From the NCBI RefSeq assembly GCF_023101665.1, contig NZ_CP082161.1:7192001-7256000 (forward strand): 64,000 nt of DNA, read 5' to 3'. The position numbers were made by a program, and so were the translations under genes. Under the pieces are notes generated by a model, which ran no database searches, was not told where the DNA came from, and saw nothing but the letters and a program-made list of their open reading frames with translations. Each line of letters opens with the position of its first letter. Position 1 is the first letter of the stretch. Of the stretch, positions 4,910 to 29,393 are shown piece by piece. Origin of the DNA: Bradyrhizobium sp. 195 (lineage in GTDB: Bacteria > Pseudomonadota > Alphaproteobacteria > Rhizobiales > Xanthobacteraceae).

Positions 4910-6574
<1,665 letters not shown>

Positions 6575-27464: not shown

Positions 27465-27610
27465 GATGGTGCCCTCCCCCGATTTTTCTTATTTCGCTGC
27501 CAGCCTAGCGCGCCAGGCGGCAAGAACAAGACGTTTACGAAGCGTTAGCCATGTCCGGCTCCGCCAGGAACGCATGTCTGGACCCGCTGTTGCCCTCTCA
27601 GGGAGAGTGG

Positions 27611-27871
27611 ATGATGCGAAATCTGGCGACCATCGACGTTGCGCTGGACGAGATGCTGGTGAATCTCGCAGCGATCGTGTTGCGGCTTTCAAAGCCCGAA
27701 TTGACGCGGACGCCGGAAGCGCGGCGCGCATTGGCGCAATCGGTCCATCAATATGCAGTCTGTGCGAAGCGTTCGAACGACCCCCGCGTTCACGAATTGA
27801 AGTCGCAGCTGGAAGAAACGCTGAAGCCAAGCCTGCGCATCGTCGCGATCGACGGCGTGAAGGTGGCTTAG
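27611..27871 (+). CDS. Small protein of unknown function
   Basis: This 86-residue, probably helical cytoplasmic protein (MMRNLATIDVALDEML...) has no recognisable motif. A ribosome binding site GGGAGAG lies just before ATG 27611; an upstream in-frame start at 27551 lacks one. The REP/RAYT cluster begins nine bases after its stop. Confidence 0.6.
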   Translation: MMRNLATIDVALDEMLVNLAAIVLRLSKPELTRTPEARRALAQSVHQYAVCAKRSNDPRVHELKSQLEETLKPSLRIVAIDGVKVA

Positions 27872-27978
27872 TCCAAGATGGTGGGCACGCTGCGCTTTGC
27901 CCACCCTACGATAGCTTGCGCAAATGATCGGTGCCGTAGGGTGGGCAAAGGCGCGCTCTTCGCGCGCCGTGCCCACGG

Positions 27979-28101
27979 TCACTCGCCGAAGTGCCCCGCG
28001 ATGTCCCGCATATCCGCCCAATCCAATGGAAGAGTGCCCTGCTACATAGAGCGATAAACCGGAAGGAGAGCATCCTGCTGCGTGCGCCGATATCGAGGCA
28101 C
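27979..28101 (-). pseudogene. Miniature RAYT derivative, unit 1 (stop inside)
   Basis: Read from GTG 28101, the frame gives VPRYRRTQQD..., matching the RAYT N-terminus, then jumps to QGTLPLDWADMRDIAGHFGE, matching its C-terminus. A TAG stop at codon 20 breaks it. The HUH and tyrosine regions are absent. It appears identical to the unit at 28491-28613. Confidence 0.8.
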
Positions 28102-28231
28102 TTGTAATCTTCTCAGGCAAAGACGTGGGCACGCTTCGCTTTGTCCACCCTACAAGAGTCTTTCCGGAGCATCGACGGGCGAGATCTCGTAGGGTGGGCA
28201 AAGGCGCGCTCTTCGCGCGCCGTGCCCACGG

Positions 28232-28360
28232 TCACTCTCCGAATTTCCCCGCGATGTCCCGCATATCCCCTCCCCAGTCGAGGGGAAGGCTGCCCTGCTC
28301 CATAGAGCGATAGACCGTAAGGAAAAACATCCTGCCTTGCGTGCGCCGATATCGAGGCAC
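28232..28360 (-). pseudogene. Miniature RAYT derivative, unit 2 (open 42-codon frame)
   Basis: From GTG 28360 an uninterrupted 42-residue frame joins residues 1-16 of the RAYT (VPRYRRTQGRMFFLTV) to residues 148-173 (YRSMEQGSLPLDWGG...FGE) with the frame kept. About 131 internal codons, including the catalytic HLH and tyrosine motifs, are gone. It is flanked by REP pairs and cannot be an active transposase; whether the peptide is made is unknown. Confidence 0.8.
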
Positions 28361-28490
28361 TTGTAATCTTCTCAGGCAAAGACGTGGGCACGCTTCACTT
28401 TGTCCACCCTACAAGAGTCTTTCCGGAGCATCGACGGGCGAGATCTCGTAGGGTGGGCAAAGGCGCGCTCTTCGCGCGCCGTGCCCACGG

Positions 28491-28613
28491 TCACTCGCCG
28501 AAGTGCCCCGCGATGTCCCGCATATCCGCCCAATCCAATGGAAGAGTGCCCTGCTACATAGAGCGATAAACCGGAAGGAGAGCATCCTGCTGCGTGCGCC
28601 GATATCGAGGCAC
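28491..28613 (-). pseudogene. Miniature RAYT derivative, unit 3 (copy of unit 1)
   Basis: It lies exactly 512 bp from unit 1 with no difference seen by eye, including the same TAG at codon 20. This implies recent duplication of a two-unit block. Confidence 0.8.
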
Positions 28614-28743
28614 TTGTAATCTTCTCAGGCAAAGACGTGGGCACGCTTCGCTTTGTCCACCCTACAAGAGTCTTTCCGGAGCATCGACGGGCGAGATCTC
28701 GTAGGGTGGGCAAAGGCGCGCTCTTCGCGCGCCGTGCCCACGG

Positions 28744-29265
28744 TCACTCTCCGAAATGACCTGGGTTGTCCCGCATATCCCCTCCCCAGTCGAGGGGAAG
28801 GCTGCCCTGCTCAACATAGCGATGGAAGCTGCTGAGCGACCAATCGCGCACACGCGGAACGAGGCCGTGTTTGACGGGATTGAAATGGATGTAATCAACG
28901 TGGCGCTCCAAGTCTCCGTCGTCGCGAATTGTGTGCTCCCAGAAACGCCGTTGCCAGAGGCCCTTCTCGCGTTTCTTCAATTTGCTCATTGGAGGCGGCG
29001 CAGCCTCCAAGCCTCGCGAAAATCCGCCTTTGATGAGATTCCAGCGCGACGAGAAATCAACGTCGCCCTCCGGCAGCGTCCAAATCGCGTGGAGGTGGTC
29101 GGGCAAAATACAGATTGCGACGGTCTCGAATGGGCGGCGTTGCTGGACAGTTCGGTAAATTTGCCTCAGGCGATCGGCTTGTTCGACGAGCAACGTGCTC
29201 GACCGATCTGCGAGCACGACGGTGAAGAAGAACGTGCTGCCGTGTGCGCGCCGATATCGAGACAC
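28744..29265 (-). CDS. REP-associated tyrosine transposase (RAYT)
   Basis: The 173-residue Y1-transposase has the HUH-type metal motif H57-L-H59 in PDHLHAIW, the motif WQRRFWEHTIRD, and the catalytic Tyr125 in HVDYIHFNPVKHG. All catalytic features look intact. RAYTs are thought to excise and insert REP sequences as single strands. It starts at GTG 29265 and is flanked by inverted REP pairs at 28701 and 29289. Three deleted relatives lie just downstream. Confidence 0.93.
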   Translation of the reverse strand: MSRYRRAHGSTFFFTVVLADRSSTLLVEQADRLRQIYRTVQQRRPFETVAICILPDHLHAIWTLPEGDVDFSSRWNLIKGGFSRGLEAAPPPMSKLKKREKGLWQRRFWEHTIRDDGDLERHVDYIHFNPVKHGLVPRVRDWSLSSFHRYVEQGSLPLDWGGDMRDNPGHFGE

Positions 29266-29393
29266 TTGTGATCCCCTCAGGCGAAGCCGTGGGCACGCTT
29301 CGCTTTGCCCACCCTACGATCGCCGGTTGCAGGAGAGACTAGCGAGGTCTTGCAGGGTGGGCAAAGCGAAGCGTGCCCACCAAAAAGTTATTA

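Follow-up and report, generated by a model that had tools for sequence, protein, structure and literature searches.

What relation do the three short, REP-bounded units at this locus bear to the intact RAYT gene beside them? A preliminary description of the window (the whole stretch of DNA analysed, 64,000 nucleotides from Bradyrhizobium sp. 195) likened them to MITEs formed from a parent by repeated internal deletion, and proposed that the terminal coding sequence they retain may be needed for mobilisation. We consider it likely, instead, that the locus is a REPtron in which a vertically inherited RAYT sits within an inverted pair of its cognate REPs and has beside it, in tandem, a local series of its own copies with the interior deleted. 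The whole looks like recurrent local duplication and collapse of a RAYT gene, not like a travelling miniature transposon. The features on which this reading rests are as follows, listed in the direction of RAYT, with the strand given for the gene and the unit cores (U1 to U3):

29352..29380: further REP upstream of RAYT, between RAYT and the LysR gene, inverted relative to the REP at 29289..29317
29289..29317: REP at the 5' side of RAYT, tag outward, hairpin side toward the gene
28744..29265, minus strand: RAYT (TnpA-REP) gene, 173 aa, GTG start, HLH at 57-59, Tyr125
28701..28741: long-loop REP at the 3' side of RAYT, 2 nt past the stop codon
28666..28700: spacer between RAYT and U3, 35 nt, identical to the other two spacers
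28637..28665: 5' REP of U3
28489..28636, minus strand: U3 core, 148 nt; leader, first ~16 codons and last ~26 codons, with a TAG and indels; same as U1
28448..28488: 3' REP of U3
28413..28447: spacer between U3 and U2, 35 nt
28384..28412: 5' REP of U2
28230..28383, minus strand: U2 core, 154 nt; deletion joint as in U1 and U3; open over 42 codons (28232-28360)
28189..28229: 3' REP of U2
28154..28188: spacer between U2 and U1, 35 nt
28125..28153: 5' REP of U1
27977..28124, minus strand: U1 core, 148 nt; identical to U3
27936..27976: 3' REP of U1
27881..27909: outer REP ending the array, beside a conserved hypothetical gene (27551-27871)
27935..28243 (left) and 28447..28755 (right): exact tandem duplication of 309 nt at an offset of 512

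The first description of an intact RAYT (HLH, Tyr125) beside three units that keep both gene ends between REP pairs is confirmed by the open reading frame and by matches in Pfam, NCBIfam and the PDB. The product matches Pfam Y1_Tnp; it scores 184.3 bits against NCBIfam REP_Tyr_transpos NF047646 (cut-off 80) and 22.6 bits against the IS200 model (below its cut-off of 55), so that the RAYT model fits and the bulk IS200 model does not; and PDB chain 4er8 (TnpArep) matches it at E 5.7e-45. A predicted HUH motif (HLH 57-59) and a single tyrosine (Y125, in HVDYIHFN) are those of the Y1 transposases. In its own genome (G000; 9.14 Mb over 3 contigs; the nearest relatives of this RAYT that bear a name are from Bradyrhizobium) the gene is the single close copy, other RAYTs being 50-52% identical, and a median pairwise dN/dS of 0.093 (274 pairs, 24 orthologues) indicates purifying selection. 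Cognate GTAG-tagged REPs both flank the gene and are dispersed in the genome. This RAYT is single copy and, by the synteny of its locus and its low dN/dS, vertically inherited and under purifying selection.

Two further RAYTs of the same genome (L032 and L033, at about 4.99 Mb and 4.16 Mb; 50-52% identical) are each bounded by a REP type of their own, GGCGGATTAGC and GGTGGATTAGC; since these REP types differ, at least three RAYT/REP systems coexist in the genome. In G119 (L070), G121 (L258), G111 (L257), G142 (L259) and G188 (L255) the RAYT orthologue at this locus seems damaged or cut short, with frame breaks, inner stops or missing ends.

Read in the direction of RAYT, the array begins after the LysR gene with two REPs, RAYT, a REP, a spacer and REP-U3-REP, and continues with a spacer, REP-U2-REP, a further spacer, REP-U1-REP, a last REP and the conserved hypothetical gene. 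The REP ahead of each block is of a 29-nt type (GTAGGGTGGGCAAAGCGAAGCGTGCCCAC before RAYT, with GGAC for GGGC before the units), and the REP behind each block is of a 41-nt long-loop type, with tags pointing outward. All three units share the orientation of RAYT, and each is enclosed by two REPs in inverse orientation.

Alignment to RAYT bears out that the units keep about the first 16 and the last 26 codons, the cores of 148, 154 and 148 nt being made up of these two ends and the RAYT leader. Aligned together with its REPs, U2 agrees with the RAYT region at 91% of positions over 111 nt (E 2.5e-38) and, in a second stretch, at 83% over 100 nt (E 1.1e-22), the REPs included in both. This similarity is, as aligned, far above chance, and derivation of the units from RAYT by internal deletion is clear. 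One deletion joint is common to U1, U2 and U3; because U1 and U3 are identical within the exact 309-nt repeat at an offset of 512, they are not independent. We had considered three independent deletions in the window, and rejected them on the single joint and the exact duplication. What stands here is a local, satellite-like tandem array of head-to-tail copies of the whole period, spacers included. An exact tract of 46 nt joins U2 to the 3' end of RAYT, against only 14 nt for U1, which suggests that sequence may have been exchanged between U2 and the RAYT 3' end, in either direction; we say no more than suggests because U2 also has an exact tract of 34 nt in common with the RAYT of a relative, G186 (21 nt for U1).

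The next question is whether such units occur elsewhere. The REP family gave 141 matches at up to 3 mismatches in the genome, a few of them at this locus, against 0 for a reversed-pattern control, and tag-outward REP pairs with 5-35-nt linkers gave 105 pattern matches (at least two places being counted on both strands), the control again giving 0; over the 95 distinct REP-pair strings the linkers measure 12-32 nt, with a median of 25. A whole-unit search of the same genome returned 34 matches at 1e-5 among the best 40 of 174 candidates, 5 of them at this locus and 29, all REP-sized, elsewhere. Exact REP-pair patterns, which allow no mismatch, found 0 pairs with 34-94-nt linkers in this genome; with 98-158-nt linkers (the patterns leave out 95-97 nt and lengths over 158 nt) they found U1, U3 and two ordinary REPINs in tandem, but not U2, one of whose REPs carries a substitution. 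Within the reach of these searches, the units appear confined to this locus in their own genome. They resemble REPINs in their two inverted REPs with tags outward, like the dispersed copies, but their cores of 148-154 nt stand against linkers of 12-32 nt, and neither the whole-unit nor the exact-pair search of this genome found them dispersed. The tandem pair of REPINs, near-identical to one another, lies at G000:C1:7556938-7557118 and has the linker of the REPIN at 305250.

We extended the comparison to the genus. The U2 core was matched in 34 of 265 Bradyrhizobium genomes at 1e-5, and some RAYT match at 1e-3 was present in 196 of the 265, 33 of these being at least 80% identical; the searches with unit cores scored 3 candidates per genome and alone cannot exclude dispersal. 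Weak matches from these searches, at about 80% over query positions 17-62 and in several cases close to where contig C1 starts, were set aside as unrelated conserved sequence. We examined 38 loci, chosen for matching the unit or RAYT. Both flanking genes (hypothetical and LysR) lie on the fetched stretch in 34 and one of the two in the other 4; in G075 the LysR side is on another contig. Probes for the two gene ends found both-ended mini-RAYTs at 8 of the 38 loci; the probes were drawn from RAYTs of the mini-bearing group and detect less in the other RAYT group, where several intact RAYTs gave no 5'-end match and G111 and G121 no match at all. The eight are:

G000: 3 minis, joint J1, downstream of RAYT
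G044: 1 mini, joint J1, downstream of RAYT
G244: 1 mini, joint J2, downstream of RAYT, near a run of N
G213: 1 mini, joint J3, no RAYT at the locus
G249: 1 mini, joint J4, upstream of RAYT; also a 5'-end stub
G124: 3 minis, joint J4, upstream of RAYT
G084: 1 mini, joint J4, no RAYT at the locus
G075: 4 minis, and at least 1 more on a neighbouring contig that begins beside LysR, joint J5, upstream of RAYT

There are thus five different joints over 8 genomes, on either side of RAYT, and the tandem units number from 1 to at least 5; at two loci (G213, G084) a mini stands without RAYT. Repeated both-ended deletion, as first proposed, holds in this comparison and not in the window, where one joint was multiplied by tandem duplication; a check on the constancy of the joint gave the same divided result, one joint within the window and five across the 8 genomes. 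A 5'-end stub also occurs in G198. Array-specific, near-identical spacers recur in G075 and G124, and the periods in two relatives are about 207 and 169 bp. In a self-comparison that left out G000, G084 and some later loci, the extra RAYT pieces of the clade came from gene nt 1-29 and 473-522 only.

The minis of G000 and G044 share leader substitutions absent from nine aligned RAYT leaders, and for this reason J1 in these two genomes probably goes back to a single event, either inherited or transferred. The G084 mini, possibly a hybrid with a RAYT leader, was left out of the count of separate events. In a LysR tree of 36 rows G249 is sister to G124 (100/99), as is G186 to G000 (100/96); the end probes found no mini in G186, so that a joint common to G000 and G044 requires loss or transfer. 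A RAYT tree of 35 rows, whose bootstrap had not settled (correlation 0.862), splits into 17 and 18 rows with support of 100/99: all six intact RAYTs of mini-bearing loci, together with that of G198, are among the 17, and none of the mini-bearing RAYTs is among the other 18. A REP map (31 rows, 29 genomes) has only single extra REPs in the RAYT group without minis; in G143 one REP pair, 396 nt apart, spans the hypothetical gene. The probes detected no minis at 30 of the 38 loci scanned, among them G186 and G132, and such loci would reflect local gain or loss. A REP and a short leader stub lie downstream of RAYT in G186 (L074) and G124 (L174), as if a second block had once been present and then lost. 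Past about position 6500 of the G075 locus (L082) the mini array meets other DNA before LysR, possibly an insertion element inside the array.

Recurrence at one locus invites the reading that selection maintains the array, whether for a host function such as a BIME-like site for gyrase or for termination between the two flanking genes, or because it donates sequence to the RAYT termini and so rewrites them. The common descent of the G000 and G044 minis and the 46-nt tract between U2 and its own RAYT fit this reading; yet minis went undetected at most of the loci scanned, the sister of G000 included, and joints, sides and copy numbers all vary, and we regard selection on the array as improbable.

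On mobility the preliminary description fails the check proposed with it. If the units were non-autonomous MITEs, moved by RAYT through their REPs and retained coding ends, the inverted REP ends, the survival of both gene ends, the adjoining cognate RAYT and the recurrent formation in several species would all be accounted for. Against this, no further copy was seen in their own genome (29 of the 34 matches among the best 40 of 174 candidates lie elsewhere and are REP-sized), exact REP pairs give 0 at 34-94 nt and only U1, U3 and the tandem REPIN pair at 98-158 nt, and the spacers are duplicated together with the units. A joined query gave 18 matches at E ≤ 0.001 in six other genomes, all at the locus (40 of 43-64 candidates), and the three unit matches in G124, from a five-genome search, are likewise all at the locus. 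That search, whose scored candidates numbered 24/24, 28/28, 24/24, 40/43 and 29/29, yielded unit matches at the locus only, besides four short off-locus matches (18-28 nt, E 0.03-0.09); its query gave no match in unit-bearing G249 and is hence insensitive there, the unit of that genome being found by the joined query. A candidate off-locus copy on contig C101 of G075 was rejected, since it lies beside LysR and is the other side of the same locus. In the genome of the window and in seven others, then, the units were found at the one homologous site and not at several non-homologous ones, and a search for copies, which had been put forward as a check, placed them at the RAYT locus only and hence argues against a mobile miniature. 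We hold this reading to be very unlikely.

Nor does the claim of in-frame miniatures survive whole. We translated ten unit cores in the parental frame. U2 is indeed open over 42 codons across the deletion (28232-28360, minus strand), as stated at the outset, and one other core is open, the 106-nt mini of G244 (26 codons; L068), making 2 of 10; in the window it is 1 of 3, U1 and U3 keeping the parental frame at both ends but carrying a TAG and small indels. The parental stop is in frame in 5 of the 10 cores (U1, U2, U3, G044 and G244; joints J1 and J2), a TAG interrupting the G044 core as well, and the cores of G249, G124, G084, G213 and G075 (J3, J4 and J5) are out of frame. Start and stop are both lost in the G075 units, and the stop in 2 of the 3 G124 units, the translated core among them. 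In-frame joints, at 2 of 5, do not exceed the chance rate of one in three, and we therefore take the units as mainly non-coding. Most of them look like non-coding remnants, a point of which we are less certain than of our others: the two in-frame joints and two open cores count against a purely non-coding view and lend a coding role a slight probability. The open frame of the G244 unit spans a joint different from that of U2. The idea that the two RAYT ends together encode a short protein, of 42 codons in U2 and 26 in G244, which acts as a truncated RAYT or a regulator, draws on those frames, open across the joint; but with 8 of 10 cores closed (by a TAG in U1, U3 and G044, and by frame in five), the start lost in G075, HLH and Tyr125 absent and U2 without a Pfam hit, we give it next to no credence.

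How, then, might RAYT blocks collapse into such units? RAYT sits where the dispersed REP pairs have their 12-32-nt linker, so that the REP-RAYT-REP block is laid out like a very large REPIN. In the predicted fold of a unit the REP-REP stem encloses the remnant (z -3.54), and for a composite REPIN built like the dispersed ones the prediction is a single long stem (z -7.95); since the REP-REP stem closes round the remnant, RAYT itself may be seen as the loop of a giant REPIN. Tandem duplication through the REPs or the spacer would then give a second REP-RAYT-REP block. The units show the outcome of the next step, in which one block would have lost about 75-90% of its coding sequence; the ends of the deletion fall some 23-80 nt into the gene, close to where the REP-REP stem has its base. 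The remnant would multiply in place with its spacer, of which the exact duplication at 512 bp here is the visible outcome, and sequence may be exchanged between a unit and RAYT, as suggested for U2 and the RAYT 3' end. A tandem two-RAYT intermediate was not seen among the 38 loci examined, which counts against our preferred explanation.

The deletion ends themselves are narrowly placed. About 23-80 nt of coding sequence are retained at either end (read by eye), and under a null of uniform single internal deletions, which uses these eye-read lengths and ignores stepwise decay, the least extreme of the five joints stands at P 0.059, while of 200,000 simulated sets of five 0 were as extreme. The cause would most likely be slippage across the stem between short repeats. 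By eye, J4 has a clear repeat (GGGCA, 5 nt), which fits such slippage; J1 and J3 have about 2-3 nt; J2 has a plausible repeat (GCAGGG), taken from the sequence of relatives rather than from its own RAYT; and J5 is unclear. Slippage at short repeats across the stem seems the best explanation of the deletion ends. In nearly precise excision of Tn10 and Tn5, short repeats close to the base of an inverted-repeat stem bound the interior that is lost, and the formation of the units may be likened to this by analogy. For the growth of the array, duplication of the spacers along with the units, by whole periods, speaks for unequal recombination or slippage rather than for separate, repeated insertions.

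If collapse can shorten a RAYT block to a remnant, it might found REPINs, a remnant of about 25 nt becoming a mobilisable REPIN. The outward-tag geometry is the same, the cores form a graded series (547 nt with RAYT, 154 to 65 nt in the minis, 12-32 nt in REPINs), and Bertels and Rainey proposed, in the text available to us, that REPINs go back to REPs at either side of an ancestral element (PMC3116915). The edges of the dispersed linkers also match those of the RAYT block above within-linker shuffles: over the outermost 10 nt, 4.6 of 10 against 2.5 (sd 0.15) on the right and 3.3 of 10 against 2.5 (sd 0.14) on the left. The linker end GAGAGAT[CG] resembles GAGTGATC at the RAYT stop in relatives, only the outermost bases being alike. 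This edge match may, however, be an extension of the REP palindrome, since the consensus is palindromic; no 34-94-nt linkers were found in the genome by exact patterns; and when the 95 linkers were compared with 60-nt windows of the RAYT block, the end windows matched no better than the internal ones. On that comparison we rejected the idea that the dispersed linkers are shrunken RAYT ends, and the proposed need for terminal coding sequence in mobilisation is left unsupported, dispersed REP pairs having 12-32-nt linkers that are no more like the RAYT ends than like its interior. Collapse as the founder of REPINs thus strikes us as unlikely, and its wider form, in which collapsed blocks link RAYT and REPIN, founding REPINs at about 25-nt cargo while also exchanging sequence with RAYT ends, as rather doubtful.

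Duplicated RAYT ends are found beyond this clade. We compared RAYT genes with their own flanks in 152 locus records, several per genome, and the extra pieces in other lineages were often one gene end beside a REP. The five inspected closely come from gammaproteobacterial, deltaproteobacterial and another bradyrhizobial record and are all one-ended:

L092: 3' end piece beside RAYT
L136: 3' end piece beside RAYT
L139: two 3' copies, as tandem REP, about 95 nt of 3' end, REP
L144: piece from nt 4 of the 5' end
L153: 5' end piece

The pieces at L109 (nt 34-134) and L113 (370-494) reach neither terminus, that at L155 looks like a REP, and that at L162 is 22 nt from the gene interior. On these records, duplicated RAYT ends beside the gene extend beyond Bradyrhizobium; among the loci looked at, both-ended collapse was seen in Bradyrhizobium only.

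Much of this setting is already published. In the accessible text, REPtrons, that is, a RAYT/TnpA-REP with flanking REPs (PMC3733652, PMC8266576), RAYT-adjacent REPIN clusters and the descent of REPINs from flanking REPs are all described (PMC3116915, PMC3733652, PMC6006769, PMC8266576, PMC2817692, PMC3686654), and pseudogenised RAYTs with deletions are mentioned (PMC3686654). The present RAYT is like a REPtron in being single copy, bounded by inverse GTAG-tagged REPs and attended by dispersed cognate REPs; it differs in its tandem blocks with internally deleted RAYT remnants, undescribed for REPtrons in the portions of the literature available. In P. fluorescens SBW25, according to the accessible text, REPIN clusters adjoin each RAYT, and in the ordered clusters the tandemly repeated segment takes in flanking sequence (PMC3116915); those repeats are described as REPINs, whereas the inner segment here is the two ends of a RAYT gene. 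'Double-foot' REPs, as far as the available text tells, arise when an inverted REP dimer loses its centre (PMC6006769), and thus also by a central deletion inside an inverted REP pair, but there the REPs fuse, and at the present locus the deletion falls in the cargo gene and leaves the REPs intact. With MITEs that arise by internal deletion of an IS the units share two kept ends, a lost interior and inverted terminal repeats; unlike them, they have neither dispersal seen nor empty sites, and their parent is apparently immobile. The accessible text of two papers likewise reports no evidence of mobility for RAYT genes (PMC8266576, PMC6006769). In our search of the open-licence literature, as far as its text was available, tandem RAYT blocks with internal deletions were nowhere described. 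What is new is the comparative point: both-ended mini-RAYTs at 8 of 38 loci, with five joints and none found dispersed.

The origin of REPINs and the persistence of RAYTs were named as open questions by Bertels and Rainey in 2011, in the text available (PMC3116915). The locus described here is orthologous over dozens of species, in which the RAYT block is found intact and alone, with collapsed and amplified copies, or collapsed without RAYT, and one can thereby trace how a RAYT block turns into a small REP-cargo-REP unit. It also carries a warning, that RAYT remnants beside a RAYT should not be read as mobile miniature elements.
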